Shown: positions 6,355 through 14,072, numbered from the stretch's first letter. The stretch is 64,000 bases of DNA from an uncultured Vicinamibacterales bacterium (GCA_958295905.1 OY282382.1:1388001-1452000); one strand, 5' to 3'. Numbers and translations are program-made. The notes: a model not told the origin generated them from the letters alone.

Positions 6355-6585
6355 GGGGCCAGCTTACCACCGGCGGGGCACCGGGCCGCGCCGAAGCATC
6401 GCCGCTCGAAGGCGGGGACTTCGCCGCGGGCTGGTAGGATTGGTTGGGCGGCGACAGCCGGGCTCGGCGGCCATGGGACAATCGGCGCGACGGGGCCGGC
6501 GGTTCGCGGCGGCACGGCGGCCGGAACCGCCGGCGTCGATTTCCGGGCCGGCGGGCGCGCGGCGGCGAAGGGGGGGCGGAAGCGG

Positions 6586-7032
6586 ATGAGCACGACGATT
6601 CGAAGGGGCGCGGCCCTGATCGGCGCACTGGCGCTGCCGGTGCTGGGGGCGGCCGGATGCGCCTCGAATCCGGCGCTTCCGACCGAGGTTCTCTTCCTGC
6701 AAGCGTACGATATCGAGAGCGGAACCGGGCGGGAGGCGGGCGCCGGCGACCGGGTCGTCATCGACTACGTCTTCTGGGCCTACGATTCGGATCAGGCCGA
6801 CAACAAGGGGCAGGAGGTCGATTCCCGCACCGGGTACACGTTCTTCCTCGGGGCCAACCAGGTCATCCCCGCGTTCGACCAGGGTCTTGTCGGCATGCGG
6901 ATCGGTGGATTGCGCCGACTCATCATTCCTCCCCAGTACGCGCGGGGGGCGACCGCGTTCGGCTCGGTCCCCCCCAACACGCCGCTCGTCGCGGACGTCC
7001 GCCTGGTGGACGCGCAGGTCGTCGCGCCGTAG
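6586..7032 (+). CDS. FKBP-type peptidyl-prolyl isomerase, lipoprotein
   Basis: A 148-residue protein. The N-terminus MSTTIRRGAALIGALALPVL leads to a lipobox (LGAAGC), so it is probably lipid-anchored. The mature part is a single FKBP domain: VVIDYVFWAYD near the start, then FFLGANQVIPAFDQGLVGMR, the IPP loop (LIIPPQYARG) and FGSVPPNTPLVADVRLVD at the end. It should catalyse prolyl cis-trans isomerisation for exported proteins. The ATG has a purine-rich GGCGGAAGCGG upstream. The very long frame that reaches it from 3064 is an artefact. Confidence 0.9.
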   Translation: MSTTIRRGAALIGALALPVLGAAGCASNPALPTEVLFLQAYDIESGTGREAGAGDRVVIDYVFWAYDSDQADNKGQEVDSRTGYTFFLGANQVIPAFDQGLVGMRIGGLRRLIIPPQYARGATAFGSVPPNTPLVADVRLVDAQVVAP

Positions 7033-7211
7033 CCGCCGGGTTACCGGAACAACTGGGGGATCACGGGTCGCTGCTGTCGATCCGTGACCGGATCAAGTTG
7101 TGCGACGGCCTGACGGAGTTGCACGTCGGCGTCAGTCCCGCGGTACTCTCGAAATACCCTGCCGGTTTTGAAATCGAAGTCGCGCGCCGGTCTTCGATTT
7201 CTTCGCGGGCC
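7033..7211. other. Short gene-free spacer
   Basis: No supported gene. Frames on both strands are short and lack known motifs. Confidence 0.3.
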
Positions 7212-7580
7212 GAGGTGGCGGCGATTCGGCGGGCGGTGACCGTGCCGGCGAGCGGCACCCTGCGGCCGGGGCCCTACCGCTACAGCCTGCGGGTGCCGGC
7301 CTTGGTGGAGTCCGCGGACGACCTCGCGGCGATCGTCGTCTCGGCCCCGGGGTCGCGCCTCGGGTGCGGCTCGCCGATGTGGCCCGCGTCGATGTGGCGC
7401 CGAGCGACACGCGGTCCGTGCTGCGTTTCGACGGCCGACCCGCCGTCGGCCTGCGCCTCTAGCTGGGAGGGCGCGGTCGGCAACGCCTTGGTCGTCACCG
7501 ACGCGGTTACCGACGTGCTCGCCGCGTTCCGGGCCGATCATCCCGACGTGCGGCTCGCCGGCCTCGAATCGCTCAAGTGC
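7212..7580 (+). pseudogene. Fragment of RND efflux permease (AcrB-like) with frameshifts
   Basis: Three frames must be joined. The first reads EVAAIRRAVTVPASGTLRPG, then PYRYSLRVPALVESADDLAA. The second reads VRLADVARVDVAPSDTRSVL and then FDGRPAVGLRL. The third reads GNALVVTDAVTDVLAAFRAD. In order these match the periplasmic porter region of AcrB/MexB-type transporters (anion-site loop, conserved RLxDVARV, PAVGL, then the A-x-A-V helix). At least two frameshifts and loss of all membrane segments make it a relic of roughly 120 codons from a protein of about 1,000. Confidence 0.7.
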
Positions 7581-7617
7581 GCTAAATCCGCCGCCCCACC
7601 CCGTAGAGTGCGGTCGC

Positions 7618-8730
7618 TCAGTTCCCGTCCCCACCGGCTTGAATGACTTCTTCCGCCCGCACGTGCAGCTCGTGAAGGAACTCGCGCTGTCTCACCCCCG
7701 CATCGCCACGCCTTTTGGCGCGGGCAGACAGCTGGTGAAAACGGGCGATCACATCCTCTTGCGCTATGATCCAGGATCTCTCGACCCTTCCATTCTGTTC
7801 CCCTGCCGCCGACCGCTGCGCAGACTCCATGTAGAACTTGGCCAGTTCCCATGCCTCGACCTCATCCATCAGGGGCTCCAATTTGATCTCGTTCTGGAGC
7901 CGCCCCCTTAACGCCGGCAGCGCGGCCGAATAGCGACGCAAGGCATCCGGCGTTATGCCGATCATCAAGAACAGACGTTGAGGAAGCGCGTCGACGACCG
8001 ACCTGATCGCCGACAGGTAGCGCACGACCGCCGTCGGACCGAGAACGCCGTCATGCTTCTCCAACTCGTCGAGCAACAGGAATATCCCGTTGAGCACACC
8101 GGCGCTTCCGCTGACCTGCACAATGTCCCTGAGCGCCGCCGTCTTCGATTCTACCGTATCCAGCCGAAACTGGACGCCGAGCGCCAGCCGGTGCGCCTTG
8201 AGCACGCGCAGTCCGAGCAGCCACTGCAGCATCAAATCGAACTCCGGATGATCCGACTTTATCAAGCGATACAACGCCGTCCGCATGTCGTGACCGCGAA
8301 CCTGCTGATCGATGGACGCTTGGTTCCGGCGAAGGCTGTCGACCAGTGTCCGAAGGTGTTCCGTCCCCAATTCCTCAAACAGCCGACGGGTCGTACCCTC
8401 AAACGACGCTTCGGGGTCAGCCAGATAGCGTACCAAGTAGTAGCCGTCACGATCCGCCATCACATTGCGGATTTCGGACTCGAAGTGATTCAGGAAGTTG
8501 GTCTTGCCGACGCCTTGCGTACCGGAAATGACCACCACATGTGACTTGCCGTCGCGCACAAAGGTGACGATACGACGTTCCGCCTCCTCGTCGGCGCTCA
8601 GTGGCCGACGAGGATTCGCCGAAGTCTGATTCGATGCCGGAAACGGATTCGTGATGATACCGAATCGTTCGTACAGACGCTCTCCCGAACTCCGGTCATC
8701 GCTCTGTCGCAGGCGGTCGCGCAAGCTCAT
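7618..8730 (-). CDS. AAA ATPase, third gene of a PIN-nuclease operon
   Basis: A 370-residue P-loop ATPase starting MSLRDRLRQSDDRS. Walker A is GTQGVGKT (residues 70-77) and Walker B is GIFLLLDELEKH (Asp221-Glu222), followed by a sensor strand (LMIGITPDAL). The region before residue 60 (LYERFGIITNPFPASNQT) resembles ORC/ExeA-type ATPases that bind DNA or act as switches. No membrane segment is visible. Its ATG overlaps the stop of the PIN gene (TAATG) with GAGGAG upstream, so it is translationally coupled. I infer a nucleotide-dependent sensor or motor controlling the PIN nuclease. No known named system was recognised. Confidence 0.8.
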   Translation of the reverse strand: MSLRDRLRQSDDRSSGERLYERFGIITNPFPASNQTSANPRRPLSADEEAERRIVTFVRDGKSHVVVISGTQGVGKTNFLNHFESEIRNVMADRDGYYLVRYLADPEASFEGTTRRLFEELGTEHLRTLVDSLRRNQASIDQQVRGHDMRTALYRLIKSDHPEFDLMLQWLLGLRVLKAHRLALGVQFRLDTVESKTAALRDIVQVSGSAGVLNGIFLLLDELEKHDGVLGPTAVVRYLSAIRSVVDALPQRLFLMIGITPDALRRYSAALPALRGRLQNEIKLEPLMDEVEAWELAKFYMESAQRSAAGEQNGRVERSWIIAQEDVIARFHQLSARAKRRGDAGVRQREFLHELHVRAEEVIQAGGDGN

Positions 8731-10760
8731 TACCGTGGCTCCTCGATGCGTAGACTCACGCTCCCCTTTCCGGGAATCAGGTAGTCGCCACGATACAAGT
8801 GGACCGGTTCCACGACCGGCCACCCGGATCTCGTGCGAAGGACATGGACGATCCGATCATCGAATCGCATCTGGGTCGTCGACCCCTCTGTGGATCTGCG
8901 CAGAAAACCCCGTTCGCCCGCTTCCTGAAGGCGACGGCGCGCGATCTCCGGGTGAATCCCGTCGTGGCTGATCAGCGACTCCAGCCAAGCGCCGGTGGCG
9001 ACCAGTCCGTCACCGCCGTCGAGGCCCGAGAACCGGCTCAAGGCGATCCGCGCAAACGCCGCCGCGTCGGGCACGGTTGGTGTCGGAAAGATATCGGCAT
9101 TCGAACCCGACGCGCAGATCAGCGTCATTTCTCCCAGTACACGGTAGGTGAACTTGCCGCGCCCCATCGTGGAGATATGGAGTGTTTGTCCCACCGACAG
9201 TTTCCTGACACGTTCCGAAAATGCGGCAAACGAAGGTGCCGTGAGGAGAATCTTGCGAACTTCATCCACGCGTTCGTGCCGCAGTGCGGCCGAGAGCCCC
9301 TGCAGATGTCCTTCCGCCCGCCACGTCCCGTTCATGACGGAAACCAGACCCGCAGATTCCAGAAAACGACGATATTCGTCGCCACCCCGACGCGTCTCCA
9401 GCACCTCCGCAACTTCGGGCCCAGTCATTTCTACGCGGTCATCCAGCATGCAGATCAACCGGATGATTCGATCGACGCTGAAACGGAGAAGGGTCCCCGA
9501 CGCCGAACCCCGGCGGCGATTCGCAGCGATGCTCCGAATTTCGGAACTCGCCCTTCTCTCCTCCGTATCGCCAACCTGCGCGCTGTCGCCGTTCATGGCG
9601 CGGGCACCGGCACCCCGCGTATGCCGACACCACAGCAGATCGTCCTTCGCGTGGTACGGCGCCCAGGGCAGGTCCCGACCAAGTGCGGTAAGCTCGAAGG
9701 TACTGTCCTGGCCGTTCTTCAGGCGGACAGACCCGAAGGCCGTGGCAAGTTCCCACAGAACCTCCGACAGCGGCGTCTCCCGAAGGTGCCCGGAAAACGG
9801 GTCGAGGCTTTTTCCAGAAAGTCGTTCACCGAACAGACGTGCCGCTCCAGTCGCCACAAAATAGAGCGGCTTTACCCCCTCGGCCAGCGCCATTCGCGCA
9901 AGGCCCTGATCGCTGGTCAAGAGCCGAACCGCATGTTCCGGACTCGACTGCGCCTGGTGATGTCGAGCCGCCTCGACGATCAATCGGTCGACATAGGCCC
10001 GAATCGAGGTACTGATGTTGAGATCCGACAGATTGCTGTCCCGCTCGGGCTGAAATGCGCTCCGCAGGGGATCGCCCAGCAGGTACGTCCGCTCCATTTC
10101 CGTATCGGTCTGCAGCTCGATTCGCAAGAGCGTCCGGTGTCCGCCCTGACTCTTCAGATGTTCAAGCAACAGGCTGATGCGACGCGCGGGTTTCGCAGTA
10201 TCGGCCCGTCGAATGCTGAAGAACCGTTCGGTGAAGTTGACGATCTCCATGTGCACGATTGCGGGGATCTTCACTCTGGCCGCCGGATGAAGATGTCGAG
10301 CAACGAAGTCCAGACCGCCCTGGAGGATCCCCGAGGTGTCCAACACCACAGTAGTCGAGCGGCGAAAAGGCATCTCCTCGAGTGCAGCGGGATCGAAGAT
10401 GGGGTGCGTGAGACCCACGCGAACGGGTGTCGAAGCAATTTCATCCATCGCGCGATCCACCGCCTTCAGTAGTAACGCGTTCTTCCTTTCGTCTGGTCCG
10501 ATCCTCAGGGCATCGAACAGATTAGTGCGTGCCTCTTCAAGTTGCGGCAGCGACCACTCGAATGCGCCCCTTCGCACAGCGTTGGTGGATGCGCCATCGG
10601 CTTGACTGCTCGACACCAGTACGATGTCGCCCAGCGGGAACCACTGGTCCTGAAAAGCCTGTTCGTCACGTACCGAAAGTTCACAGCTACTTTGCCGCTC
10701 GAACATCTCGGCGATCTGCGGCTCGGCTTCATGCCGTGAGATGAGGACGTTTGCAGTCAT
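8730..10760 (-). CDS. Large PIN-domain protein with C-terminal winged-helix-like region
   Basis: A 676-residue protein. The PIN-fold nuclease lies at about residues 135-300: VVLDTSGILQGG (Asp141), IVHMEIVNF (Glu172), a middle acid in YVDRLIVEAA (Asp258) and LLTSDQGLARM (Asp284). This is the full acidic set expected of a metal-dependent RNase/DNase. Residues 430-670 look like helix-turn-helix units, for example RLICMLDDRVEMTGPEVAEV and WLESLISHDGIHPEIARRRL. The start ATG overlaps the stop of the upstream 151-aa gene (ATGA); the longer frame is ignored. It is much larger than VapC toxins (about 130 aa). The likely role is an effector nuclease with its own regulatory domain, inferred from domains and operon. 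Confidence 0.8.
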   Translation of the reverse strand: MTANVLISRHEAEPQIAEMFERQSSCELSVRDEQAFQDQWFPLGDIVLVSSSQADGASTNAVRRGAFEWSLPQLEEARTNLFDALRIGPDERKNALLLKAVDRAMDEIASTPVRVGLTHPIFDPAALEEMPFRRSTTVVLDTSGILQGGLDFVARHLHPAARVKIPAIVHMEIVNFTERFFSIRRADTAKPARRISLLLEHLKSQGGHRTLLRIELQTDTEMERTYLLGDPLRSAFQPERDSNLSDLNISTSIRAYVDRLIVEAARHHQAQSSPEHAVRLLTSDQGLARMALAEGVKPLYFVATGAARLFGERLSGKSLDPFSGHLRETPLSEVLWELATAFGSVRLKNGQDSTFELTALGRDLPWAPYHAKDDLLWCRHTRGAGARAMNGDSAQVGDTEERRASSEIRSIAANRRRGSASGTLLRFSVDRIIRLICMLDDRVEMTGPEVAEVLETRRGGDEYRRFLESAGLVSVMNGTWRAEGHLQGLSAALRHERVDEVRKILLTAPSFAAFSERVRKLSVGQTLHISTMGRGKFTYRVLGEMTLICASGSNADIFPTPTVPDAAAFARIALSRFSGLDGGDGLVATGAWLESLISHDGIHPEIARRRLQEAGERGFLRRSTEGSTTQMRFDDRIVHVLRTRSGWPVVEPVHLYRGDYLIPGKGSVSLRIEEPR

Positions 10761-11212
10761 CGAATGGACACCGATATACTCGGGCGGTTTGCGAAGCACC
10801 CCAGCAGCCACTTCAAGTGCAAGACGAATGCCACCAGTGCGTTTATCTCGTTGGGCAATTCTTCATGACCAGGGGGTTGACTCAAGCTTTCGGACCACAC
10901 TACGTGCTGAGAGTCCATTGCTCGTTCGGCGGCCAGGACGAAGTCCGCGAGGACGGCGAGACGCCGTTCTTGCGGCGGTTTCGACACATCCAAGCGCTCA
11001 AGGCGGTCTCGGAGGTTGCGGCGGACACCTTCGTCCTCGACGCCCGCGAAGGGGTCCTCTCGCAGTTGCCACGAATACACCTCTTGTTGAAGGTTGGACT
11101 CGAGGTCCAACATCCAATGCCCGCCTTTTTCATCAGACAAGACAAGCGCACGGGACGGGGCGAAGTCCCGCCAGATCGACAGCGTGCGTACCACGTGCGG
11201 CTCCACCGGCAC
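10757..11212 (-). CDS. Hypothetical protein, first gene of the PIN-ATPase operon
   Basis: A 151-residue protein with a GTG start preceded by AAGGAGAACACG. It is soluble, without a signal peptide. The N-terminal half has a beta-rich pattern (SRALVLSDEKGGHWMLDLES) and the C-terminal half is helical (NEINALVAFVLHLKWLLGCF). No family recognised. It overlaps the PIN gene by 4 bases, so all three products are probably made together. It could be the specificity or neutralising subunit of the module, but nothing in the sequence proves this. Confidence 0.6.
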   Translation of the reverse strand: MPVEPHVVRTLSIWRDFAPSRALVLSDEKGGHWMLDLESNLQQEVYSWQLREDPFAGVEDEGVRRNLRDRLERLDVSKPPQERRLAVLADFVLAAERAMDSQHVVWSESLSQPPGHEELPNEINALVAFVLHLKWLLGCFANRPSISVSIR

Positions 11213-11570
11213 CGTGTTCTCCTTGGCTGGACGATTCCGCTGACGGGGCGCAGAACCCCGCCGTCAAAAGGCTAGCGCATTGCCATCGTTAAAAATAGGG
11301 TCGCCGAAGAACTCACTTCGGACCGAAAGAGTTCCCATGCAGAGGAAATACATCGTTCGGCTCAAGTCCGTCTGTCTGAAGATTATGACGTGACGGACCA
11401 CTGGGGGTCTCGACGACGTGCGATTTGGGCCCGCGCTGCGTCGCGGCGTATTATGGCATTTCTGGACTGACCGGAGGGCGGGAGACCCGCGCAACGCAAC
11501 GGCTCGGCGGCGGCCCGACGATGACGACGATTGCCGCGAGGTGACGGCGCGGATCCCGGCCGCGCGCCCC
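11213..11570. other. Spacer with an insertion-sequence-like relic
   Basis: No intact gene. From 11339 a short frame reads MQRKYIVRL and then degenerates, resembling the first residues of IS630-type transposases. Within it lies the dispersed repeat at 11363..11402. No promoter boxes were clear for the operon that starts at 11212. Confidence 0.35.
11363..11402 (+). repeat. Dispersed repeat with core ATTATGACGTGACGGACC
   Basis: About 40 bases running from AAGTCCGTCTGTCTGAAG through ATTATGACGTGACGGACC. Nearly the same sequence lies inverted at 43085..43125, and a weaker copy at 36998..37050. GTCCGTC and GACGGAC inside the unit form an inverted repeat. It may be an end of a small mobile element. 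Confidence 0.6.
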
Positions 11571-14072
11571 TTACCGGAACAGCCGGGTGACCTTGACGAC
11601 GAACCCCCGGTTGCGGAGCTCGGCGTAGCGGTCGGGCCGCAGCGGGTCGACGTCCTGCTCTTCGGTGTAGACGACGAACAGCTCGCTGCCGGGCGAGTAC
11701 TCCCACCGCAGCCGGAGGTTGGTGCCGAGGGTGTGGTTGGTGGAGTTGTACTGGAACAGCCCGCTGACGAACATGCGGGGAGAGAACGTGTAGTTGAGGC
11801 GCCCGCGCAGGAGGTCGGTGCGGAAGGAACCGCCCGGCAGGTCGATCCAGTTGAACGAGACGCTGGGCTCGACGGACAGGCGCGGCGACAGATCGACGCG
11901 CCCGCGGCTGAGGTCGACCGAGGTGAGCTTCCCGTCGAAGTAGCCGCCGGTCGCCGCCTCCACCCGCCCGTTCAGCAGCCGTTGCGGGCCGAGCGCATAG
12001 GTCAGGCGCACGTCGGTGAAGTCGTAGCCGCCGACCGGAATCGTCACCCCCTCGCGCCGCGAGACCGGGAACGGCTTCCGCAGAAACTCGAAGCTGTCGC
12101 TCAGCCTCACCCCGAACTGGTCGCTGTTCTCGAGCTCGGTCTGCACCGCGACCTGTTGCTGGCGGGTTTCGAGCCGTCCGGTGTCGGCGGTCAGGAAGTA
12201 GTCGAGGCTGCCCTCGAGGACGAACTGGCGCACCGATTCGATGGACCGCGGCCGCGGGCTGAAGCGGCCCGAGACCGACGTGCGCCGGAAGTTGTCGCGC
12301 CGCAGGAACCCGACCTCGGGGCGGAAGTCGTCTTCCACCGCCAGGTGATCGAGCTCGAAGCCGTAGCGGTCGGCGCCGTAGTCGAACCGCGCCTGGTAGC
12401 TGGCGTCGCGGCCCGTCACGCCGGTGGTGCGGGTCCGGGCGTAGTAACCGAGGAAGTTGACGCTGTCGAAGAACGAGAAGCTGGCGTCGGCCCCGTAGGC
12501 CTGGTTCGAGCCGGTTCCGTCGAACGACACCGACCGGTTCGTGAGCAGGGCGCCGATGCTGCTGCGGCGCAGGAGGTCGCGCCTGACCCGCAGCACCGTG
12601 AAGTTGGTGGCGCCCGCGCCGGAGACCGTCTCGGCGCCGGTGCGGAGGTTCTGCTCGCCGGTCTGGATGTTCAGGGCCCCGACGTCGAACGCGCCGACCT
12701 TGCCGGTCAGGCGCCCCCCGCCGAGGATCGGCACGACCTCGCCGCCCTGCAGCCCGATGCGCCGGCTGTAGAAGAGGGTCGGCGCGGCGCCCCCGCCGAG
12801 CACGCTGCCCTGACGCAGGCTGCGGGCGGTGCGGAAGCTCCCGCGCGCGAAATCGAAGATGCCGCGCCCCTCCAGAAAGAACTCCCGTTTCTCGGGGAAG
12901 AACAGGTTGAACCGGGTCAGGTTCACCTGCTGCTCGTCCACTTCCACCTGCGCGAAGTCGGTGTTGACGGTGAAGTCGGCGGTCAGGTTCTGGGTGACGC
13001 CGTACTTCAGATCGACACCGAGCCCGCCGTGGCGGGCCCCCTGTTCGGGGGGGGCGTTCACGTCGGTGGTCATGCCGCCGATGGCGTACGGCTTGATCTC
13101 CAGATGGTTGCCCGCGGGCGGCGTCTCGAGCCCGACCAGGGTGCCCGCCGCCGACACCCGGAAGACGCCGCCGCGCCCGCCGAACCCGGCCGCGGAGATG
13201 GGAATCAGGGTCAGGTAGGCCCACTCGTTCTTGCGGATCACGGTGCGGCGGATCTGGATTCCCCACACCTGGTCGCGGTCGGGCCGATAGCGCAGCGACT
13301 TGAACGGCACCACCATCTCGATGGTCCAGCCGCCGTCGAAGCGCGCCGTCTTCACGTCCCACACCGGGTTCCAGTCGCGGTTCGGATTGCCTTCGTTGGT
13401 GATCGCCTGGTCGACGAACCCGCCGGCGGGGTTGGCGTAGAAGAGGAGCGCGTTGCGCCGGTCGTAGAACGTGTCGATCAGGAAGCCGAACAGGTCGTTG
13501 TTCAGCATGTTGAACGCGTCGCGGCGCATCTCCGTCGCCACCCACTCGCTCGGCGGCGCGCTGTCCCAGCAGCGCCCGGCGACGTAGAAGTTCTCGTCGT
13601 CGAACATCACCCAGGCCTCGGTGCGCTCCGTGGCGGGGGCGCCCTCGTCGGGAAGCTGCTGGATGAAGCCGGACACCGGGGGGACGGTCTCGTAGACCGG
13701 CTCGTCCAGCCGTCCGTCGACGCGGATTCCCGCCCGCAGCGGGATGGCGCGCATGGTCGCCTGCCCGCCCTCCCGGGTGATCATCGCGGGCGGCGCCGGC
13801 GGGGGAGGCCCGTCGATGGCGATTCCCGGCTCGACCGCAGTCAGCTCGCCCGGCTCGCCCGGCACGGGCTGGGCCGAAGCGGGCGCCGCGAGGCCCAGGG
13901 CCGCTGCCAACAGGATCGCCGGGACCCGCCGGGGCCGGGCCGTGGTCGGCTCGGCGGCGGCTCGGCGAACGTCGGGGCCGAAGACGGCAGTCACACGATG
14001 CCGCAGGCGGGAGACGTGGCTGTTCTCATGGTGGTGTCCCGGGACGATGTCCGCCGGCGCCGGCATCCGCAT
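11571..14072 (-). CDS. DUF5916 outer-membrane beta-barrel protein with CBM9-like head
   Basis: An 833-residue exported protein; a signal sequence lies near residues 45-65 (AILLAAALGLAAPASA), so the true start may be one of several codons after 14072. Residues ~105-260 resemble a family-9 carbohydrate-binding fold (IRVDGRLDEPVYETVPP, EAWVMFDDENFYVAGRC). The rest is rich in alternating aromatic strands with FFPEKREFFLEGRGIF, a hallmark of DUF5916 proteins, and ends in VVKVTRLFR, a terminal strand ending in Phe-Arg. This points to an outer-membrane barrel in polymer uptake or surface binding. The family is common in Acidobacteriota and Bacteroidota. It is monocistronic here. Confidence 0.85.
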   Translation of the reverse strand: MRMPAPADIVPGHHHENSHVSRLRHRVTAVFGPDVRRAAAEPTTARPRRVPAILLAAALGLAAPASAQPVPGEPGELTAVEPGIAIDGPPPPAPPAMITREGGQATMRAIPLRAGIRVDGRLDEPVYETVPPVSGFIQQLPDEGAPATERTEAWVMFDDENFYVAGRCWDSAPPSEWVATEMRRDAFNMLNNDLFGFLIDTFYDRRNALLFYANPAGGFVDQAITNEGNPNRDWNPVWDVKTARFDGGWTIEMVVPFKSLRYRPDRDQVWGIQIRRTVIRKNEWAYLTLIPISAAGFGGRGGVFRVSAAGTLVGLETPPAGNHLEIKPYAIGGMTTDVNAPPEQGARHGGLGVDLKYGVTQNLTADFTVNTDFAQVEVDEQQVNLTRFNLFFPEKREFFLEGRGIFDFARGSFRTARSLRQGSVLGGGAAPTLFYSRRIGLQGGEVVPILGGGRLTGKVGAFDVGALNIQTGEQNLRTGAETVSGAGATNFTVLRVRRDLLRRSSIGALLTNRSVSFDGTGSNQAYGADASFSFFDSVNFLGYYARTRTTGVTGRDASYQARFDYGADRYGFELDHLAVEDDFRPEVGFLRRDNFRRTSVSGRFSPRPRSIESVRQFVLEGSLDYFLTADTGRLETRQQQVAVQTELENSDQFGVRLSDSFEFLRKPFPVSRREGVTIPVGGYDFTDVRLTYALGPQRLLNGRVEAATGGYFDGKLTSVDLSRGRVDLSPRLSVEPSVSFNWIDLPGGSFRTDLLRGRLNYTFSPRMFVSGLFQYNSTNHTLGTNLRLRWEYSPGSELFVVYTEEQDVDPLRPDRYAELRNRGFVVKVTRLFR

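Follow-up and report, generated by a model that had tools for sequence, protein, structure and literature searches.

An apparently mobile three-gene cassette with a putative PIN nuclease and a BrxC/BrxD-like ATPase, a candidate anti-invader system

Introduction

PIN domains are nucleases, often RNases, and ATPases of the ORC/CDC6 type load on DNA. Both kinds of protein occur in described conflict systems. In VapBC, a single-domain PIN of about 130 aa is accompanied by VapB, and in DS-3 and DS-5, two compact systems with a PIN nuclease as effector, defence requires the PIN catalytic residues (PMC13092281). The ATPase of the Ssp phosphorothioation system is predicted to translocate together with the wHTH reader SspB (PMC10853773), and BrxD of BREX is a stand-alone ATPase of the ORC/CDC6 type (PMC12839542). 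The RM-like system Hma also goes by the name Type-1 BREX-related, and an anti-phage role of its HmaA has been demonstrated (PMC12839542); according to PMC12988326, which cites Payne et al. 2024, systems embedded in Hma have been used for discovering new defences.

Here we describe a cassette whose parts belong to known superfamilies and whose combination and order of genes matched no catalogue searched. A sequence-only reading of the window, by which we mean the whole stretch of 64,000 nucleotides that was analysed, had pointed out three genes at 7618-11212 with overlaps of 4 and 1 bases, and three intact ORFs of 151, 676 and 370 aa were found there on the minus strand:

10757..11212, minus strand: gene 1, a small acidic protein of 151 aa without known family
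8730..10760, minus strand: gene 2, 676 aa, a putative PIN nuclease fused with a winged-helix region
7618..8730, minus strand: gene 3, a BrxC/BrxD-like (ORC/CDC6-type) ATPase of 370 aa

Gene 1 (11212-10757) has a GTG start with AAGGAG upstream, and its four-base overlap with gene 2 reads ATGA, while the single base shared by genes 2 and 3 lies within TAATG. That the genes are conserved together, as had been surmised, was borne out in all six loci with an intact cassette, which have the same order and overlaps; in none of them does the operon extend beyond the three genes. The ORF set is thus confirmed to be more than chance, since six copies are intact in the same order and dN/dS between the window and the other copies is low (0.08-0.26 where dS was computable, many dS values being saturated).

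Comparison with known systems

The earlier impression that no named system has this make-up has held: PADLOC 2.0.0, NCBIfam 20 and PHROGs gave no match to the set, with gene 2 matching none of the PADLOC and NCBIfam models and genes 1 and 3 giving weak matches only. No published system of this composition was found in the literature either, in a search that had supplementary tables and bioRxiv outside its scope.

The likenesses are partial. Gene 3 matches the BrxC/BrxD ATPase family PF10923 above the cut-off (33.3 bits against 22.2) and is, like BrxD, a stand-alone ORC/CDC6-type ATPase (PMC12839542), but PglZ, PglX and BrxHI were not found beside the cassette, and membership of BREX is contradicted by the nearest window neighbours, among which there is no PglZ or methyltransferase. 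Its best PADLOC match is mad8 of MADS, though a weak one (E 0.005, and 2e-4 for the orthologue in locus L028), and no strong mads gene lies alongside; the one mad3-like AAA match, in L029, has an E of 1e-5. A Dpd or 7-deazaguanine DNA modification system does not fit, as the operons have three genes only and no TGT was seen among the neighbours read. Ssp is similar in outline, with an ORC/CDC6-type ATPase and a wHTH reader that brings an activity to DNA (PMC10853773), but when compared by description the cassette differs in its PIN effector; no sulfur-modification genes were seen among the neighbours read, and no Ssp-named families among the PADLOC matches. DS-3 and DS-5 have in common with the cassette the PIN effector in a compact system, but going by their description DS-3 consists of one protein whose PIN is split, in DS-5 the PIN is accompanied by a DUF5830/AcrIF4-like partner, and no ORC/CDC6 ATPase is described for either (PMC13092281).

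VapBC also has a PIN with conserved acids and a small coupled upstream gene, which brings up the alternative of a toxin-antitoxin-type module with gene 1 as antitoxin, gene 2 as PIN toxin and the ATPase as chaperone or regulator, where addiction, and not direct immunity, maintains the cassette. PIN is the fold of the VapC toxin and gene 1 has the usual position of an antitoxin; moreover, a decayed relic of the cassette exists (in genome G017, see below) and a HicA gene lies near the copy in L026. Gene 2 is however, as had been remarked before, about five times the size of VapC, a multidomain protein with a DNA-binding region, and gene 1 matches no antitoxin family, including VapB. The cassette has a conserved ATPase, which is not a known component of type II modules, and DS-5 is a two-gene PIN system that likely is not a toxin-antitoxin pair (PMC13092281). 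The cassette is hence not a VapBC system, and we regard a toxin-antitoxin role in the wider sense as unlikely.

Domains and conserved residues

The features of genes 2 and 3 are the following:

10350..10760, minus strand: N-terminal domain of gene 2 (aa 1-137), without family, RRGAFEW and GLLHP.FD conserved
9870..10349, minus strand: PIN_4 domain of gene 2 (aa 138-297), by Pfam match, D141, E172, D258 and D284 invariant
9261..9482, minus strand: MarR-like winged helix of gene 2 (aa 427-500), VIA-align Z 9-11, rmsd 1.5-4.2, 65-78 aligned
8826..9065, minus strand: second putative winged helix of gene 2 (aa 566-645), from predicted secondary structure only
8500..8523, minus strand: Walker A of gene 3, GTQGVGKT, invariant in six copies
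8065..8079, minus strand: Walker B of gene 3, LLLDE, invariant in six copies

Gene 2 is a putative nuclease, judging by the match to PIN_4 (PF13638; 24.9 bits against a cut-off of 21.9 for the window copy, and E<=0.1 in all five members scanned) and by the catalytic acids, the four of which are invariant across all six copies, as are further residues including D151, H158 and D230. The sequence-only reading had proposed the PIN domain with its full acidic set as well as intact Walker motifs in gene 3, and all of these have stood up. AlphaFold gave a partial model of gene 2 (mean pLDDT 50.8 with five sequences, 34 with a single sequence) in which aa 1-110 reached about 57-84 and the PIN core about 30, so that the PIN fold is assigned from the Pfam match and the conserved acids. 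Foldseek found no match for the model at E<=0.001, and no relatives of the three proteins turned up when their profiles were searched against PDB sequences. A structural second look with VIA-align, which covered mainly aa 427-500, matched this part, a winged helix in the model, mostly to MarR-type regulators, whereas aa 566-645 is predicted to be a helix-helix-helix-strand-strand unit that looks like another winged helix. Of the winged-helix-like units suggested earlier, the first thus has structural matches and the second the secondary structure prediction.

Gene 1 is acidic (pI 4.6-5.4), the fastest evolving member of the trio, and carries the conserved motifs LSIWR.F and LHLKWL..CF. It was rightly said to be without recognisable family, as Pfam, NCBIfam, PADLOC, PHROGs and PDB yielded weak matches only.

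A related operon in haloarchaea

The nearest relative of gene 3 found outside the cassette is a haloarchaeal ATPase. When gene 3 was compared with plasmids by tblastn, the only matches were two distant ATPases of this kind (E 8e-9 and 3e-6), and these are part of a triad of tRNA-guanine transglycosylase, a 300-aa protein and the ATPase that is conserved in the seven plasmids read. The hhalign match to gene 3 covers most of the length (E 7.8e-16); those to a BrxD (L019, E 0.0095) and to Shango-like ATPases were much weaker, though single sequences were used there. The haloarchaeal operon has coding overlaps like the cassette, its ATPase has the same N-terminal NPFP motif, and the gene directly upstream of the ATPase aligns weakly with the C-terminal part of gene 2. 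It differs in that a transglycosylase replaces the PIN, the winged helix is a separate protein, the ATPase has about 24% identity, and a gene 1 homologue was not recognised.

The 300-aa protein aligns colinearly with aa 400-676 of gene 2 (score 29.9, P 0.002), compared with 22.6 for the best of 60 column shuffles, 13.6 when reversed and 18.9 for the N-terminal part of gene 2, but by sequence the link is weak, with an hhalign probability of 13%. We take this as suggestive, not as proof, of a winged-helix/ATPase module common to both. A further-reaching reading, which we put forward as possible but somewhat doubtful, is that the cassette would be a new anti-invader system built on an interchangeable surveillance module of ORC/CDC6-type ATPase and winged-helix reader, which is coupled to a guanine transglycosylase in haloarchaea and here, in what would be its nuclease branch, to a PIN nuclease with a small gating protein.

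The transglycosylase/predicted winged-helix/BrxD-like ATPase operon (L004 6039-9131, and L005-L010) has genes of the 7-deazaguanine pathway and a csa3 gene nearby in some records, and may itself be a system of DNA modification or defence that has yet to be characterised.

Other ATPases were found in the phylum of the window with gene 3 and mixed-ATPase profiles. They were set aside as other systems, none of which has a PIN gene. By our own reading, L019 is a BREX type 2-like system, L017 a Shango-like set of ATPase and helicase, and L018 holds an ExeA-like ATPase, while in L016 (6429-11159) an ATPase of the same broad class lies beside a DNA methyltransferase and what is probably a nuclease.

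Distribution

A first scan of genome contigs with gene 2 gave no match. Gene 3, scanned against one genome per species for 84,980 species, matched four contigs (L026, L027, L028 and L029), all from Gammaproteobacteria MAGs, one of them labelled Pseudomonadales, and all four have the full trio in the same order with overlaps of 1-4 bases. A profile search of the family to which the L026 genome belongs found the cassette in 5 of 207 genomes and added a new carrier with all three genes (G944, locus L035). Intact cassettes are thereby known from six genomes in two phyla, namely the window and five gammaproteobacterial ones. The samples of the gammaproteobacterial order and class contained no relative besides the query genome, 396 genomes of the window's phylum contained none by gene 3, and there was none in phages and viral contigs; gene 2, searched by tblastn and a peptide-pattern scan, was likewise not found in plasmids, phages or viral contigs.

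The 162 genomes of the host order have one intact copy and one relic. The latter (L002 1441-1632), from a different genus within the host family, is a degraded gene 1-gene 2 fusion where 28 residues that match gene 1 are followed without a break by 43 codons of gene 2. It is a deletion remnant of the cassette in which the order of the two genes is kept. Two Uma2-like genes adjoin it, and a Uma2 gene is found near the L027 cassette too.

Amino acid identities between the window and the gammaproteobacterial copies are 45-57% for gene 1, 52-55% for gene 2 and 60-67% for gene 3, which is about the same as among the gammaproteobacterial copies themselves when the near-identical pair of L026 and L029 is left aside. 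The window copy seems therefore to lie within the gammaproteobacterial diversity though its host is of a different lineage, which points to lateral transfer.

Insertion and mobility

The insertion in the window is the following:

7033..11570, no strand: segment missing in two congeners, with the cassette and an RND-permease remnant

In the congeners G001 and G002 the FKBP-type gene adjoins the DUF5916 gene at a distance of roughly 70 and 330 bp, whereas in the window the former ends at 7032 and the latter at 11571, so that the window has a private segment of 4.5 kb. GC is 0.606 in the cassette against 0.696 in the remainder of the window; in L027, L028, L029 and L035 the cassette is 4-8 points lower in GC than its flanks. 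Apart from the L026/L029 pair no sequence is common to the flanks of the copies, and no terminal repeats recur, so that the conserved unit is the three genes alone. From these comparisons the cassette is horizontally acquired cargo, and a transposon with conserved ends was considered and rejected since no such ends were found.

These observations also bear on the alternative that the cassette is machinery of a mobile element, for integration, segregation or replication control, with an ATPase like TnsC/TniB or a partition ATPase. Transposition systems do have ATPases of the ORC/CDC6 type among them (PMC10853773), and the cassette moves laterally and has a transposase near its L027 copy. Against it, the cassette has no transposase or integrase of its own, and its unrelated copies are without the common flanks or recurring ends. 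PIN is not known as a transposase fold. We consider this the least probable of the alternatives, and a very unlikely one.

The stretch that separates the FKBP-type gene from the cassette holds what is left of an RND efflux permease gene, with a frameshift (7060-7590, plus strand); an 85% identical copy, overlapping an ORF that matches ACR_tran, is found elsewhere in the genome. A 20-bp inverted repeat (95%; 7321-7340/11523-11542) flanks the window cassette with one arm in this remnant; it was not seen at the other copies and may be due to chance. In L026 and L029 the cassette block is 98% identical and the neighbouring shared stretches 79-92%, L029 having additional genes in between, which suggests a hotspot for variable cargo or a recent exchange, to be taken with caution in MAG assemblies.

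Genomic contexts

In L028, HmaB (3-2735; PADLOC 1375 bits) and HmaA (6992-10606; 1575 bits) enclose the cassette, which is on the opposite strand. This embedding is seen in L028 only, and HmaC, if present, would be past the contig end. Within the same Hma locus, directly downstream of the cassette, is a gene for an HTH_31/HTH_3 regulator (6465-6911, plus strand), and none was seen beside the cassette at the other loci examined. The other copies have a DDE (IS) transposase and a Uma2 gene alongside (L027), HicA nearby (L026), or a histidine-kinase-like ATPase gene and an AAA_27 gene nearby (L029). The window and L035 copies are among housekeeping genes, which in the window are those of an M1 peptidase, the DUF5916 protein, a hydroxyacid dehydrogenase and, identified by eye, the FKBP-type gene. 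The contexts are thus mixed rather than purely housekeeping. As to the defence islands that the sequence-only reading had suggested looking for, only one of the six contexts, that of L028, is a recognised defence locus.

The housekeeping neighbours of the window and L035 copies could speak for an accessory role in RNA processing or DNA repair, occasionally acquired, and PIN nucleases serve RNA processing too. Such a role is hard to reconcile with the very patchy distribution (one intact copy and one relic in the 162 genomes of the host order, five in the 207 of the gammaproteobacterial family, none beyond the query genome in wider samples), the foreign GC and the embedding in Hma, and we find it improbable.

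Proposed function

We think it probable, without being certain, that the cassette is a rare, stand-alone, horizontally moving anti-invader unit where DNA surveillance by the ATPase and the winged helix licenses the PIN nuclease; the target is probably phage. The suggestion of a sensor-effector conflict set is in this way supported, with the function read from sequence. It is supported by the trio being kept in six genomes of two phyla with invariant catalytic residues, by the congeners without the insert, the foreign GC and the unrelated flanks, and by the homology of gene 3 to an ATPase paired with a winged-helix protein. The insertion into Hma in L028 is the "guilt-by-embedding" signature by which anti-phage systems have been sought (PMC12988326), and Ssp (PMC10853773) and the PIN effectors of DS-3 and DS-5 (PMC13092281) are precedents. 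The scarcity of recognised defence contexts and the housekeeping surroundings of the window and L035 copies weaken it.

We infer the defence function, the formation of a complex, its trigger, the substrate and the role of gene 1 from what is known of PIN and ORC/CDC6 proteins and from the Ssp and DS-3/DS-5 precedents. The ATPase of gene 3 and the winged-helix region of gene 2 would assemble on DNA and survey it. Once invading DNA is recognised, with turnover of ATP, the PIN nuclease of that same gene 2 protein would be unleashed to cut RNA or nearby DNA and stop the infection. RNA may be slightly favoured as the substrate given the precedent of other PIN domains. The product of gene 1, which is coupled in translation and evolves fastest, would most likely bind that of gene 2 and either hold it inactive or confer specificity.

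Conclusions

The cassette is a compact three-gene unit of 3.6 kb and is easily testable in a laboratory host. If the proposed function is true, it would add a branch with a PIN effector to the conflict systems built on an ORC/CDC6 ATPase and a winged helix, and it may help to explain the winged-helix/ATPase pair in the transglycosylase operons of haloarchaea.
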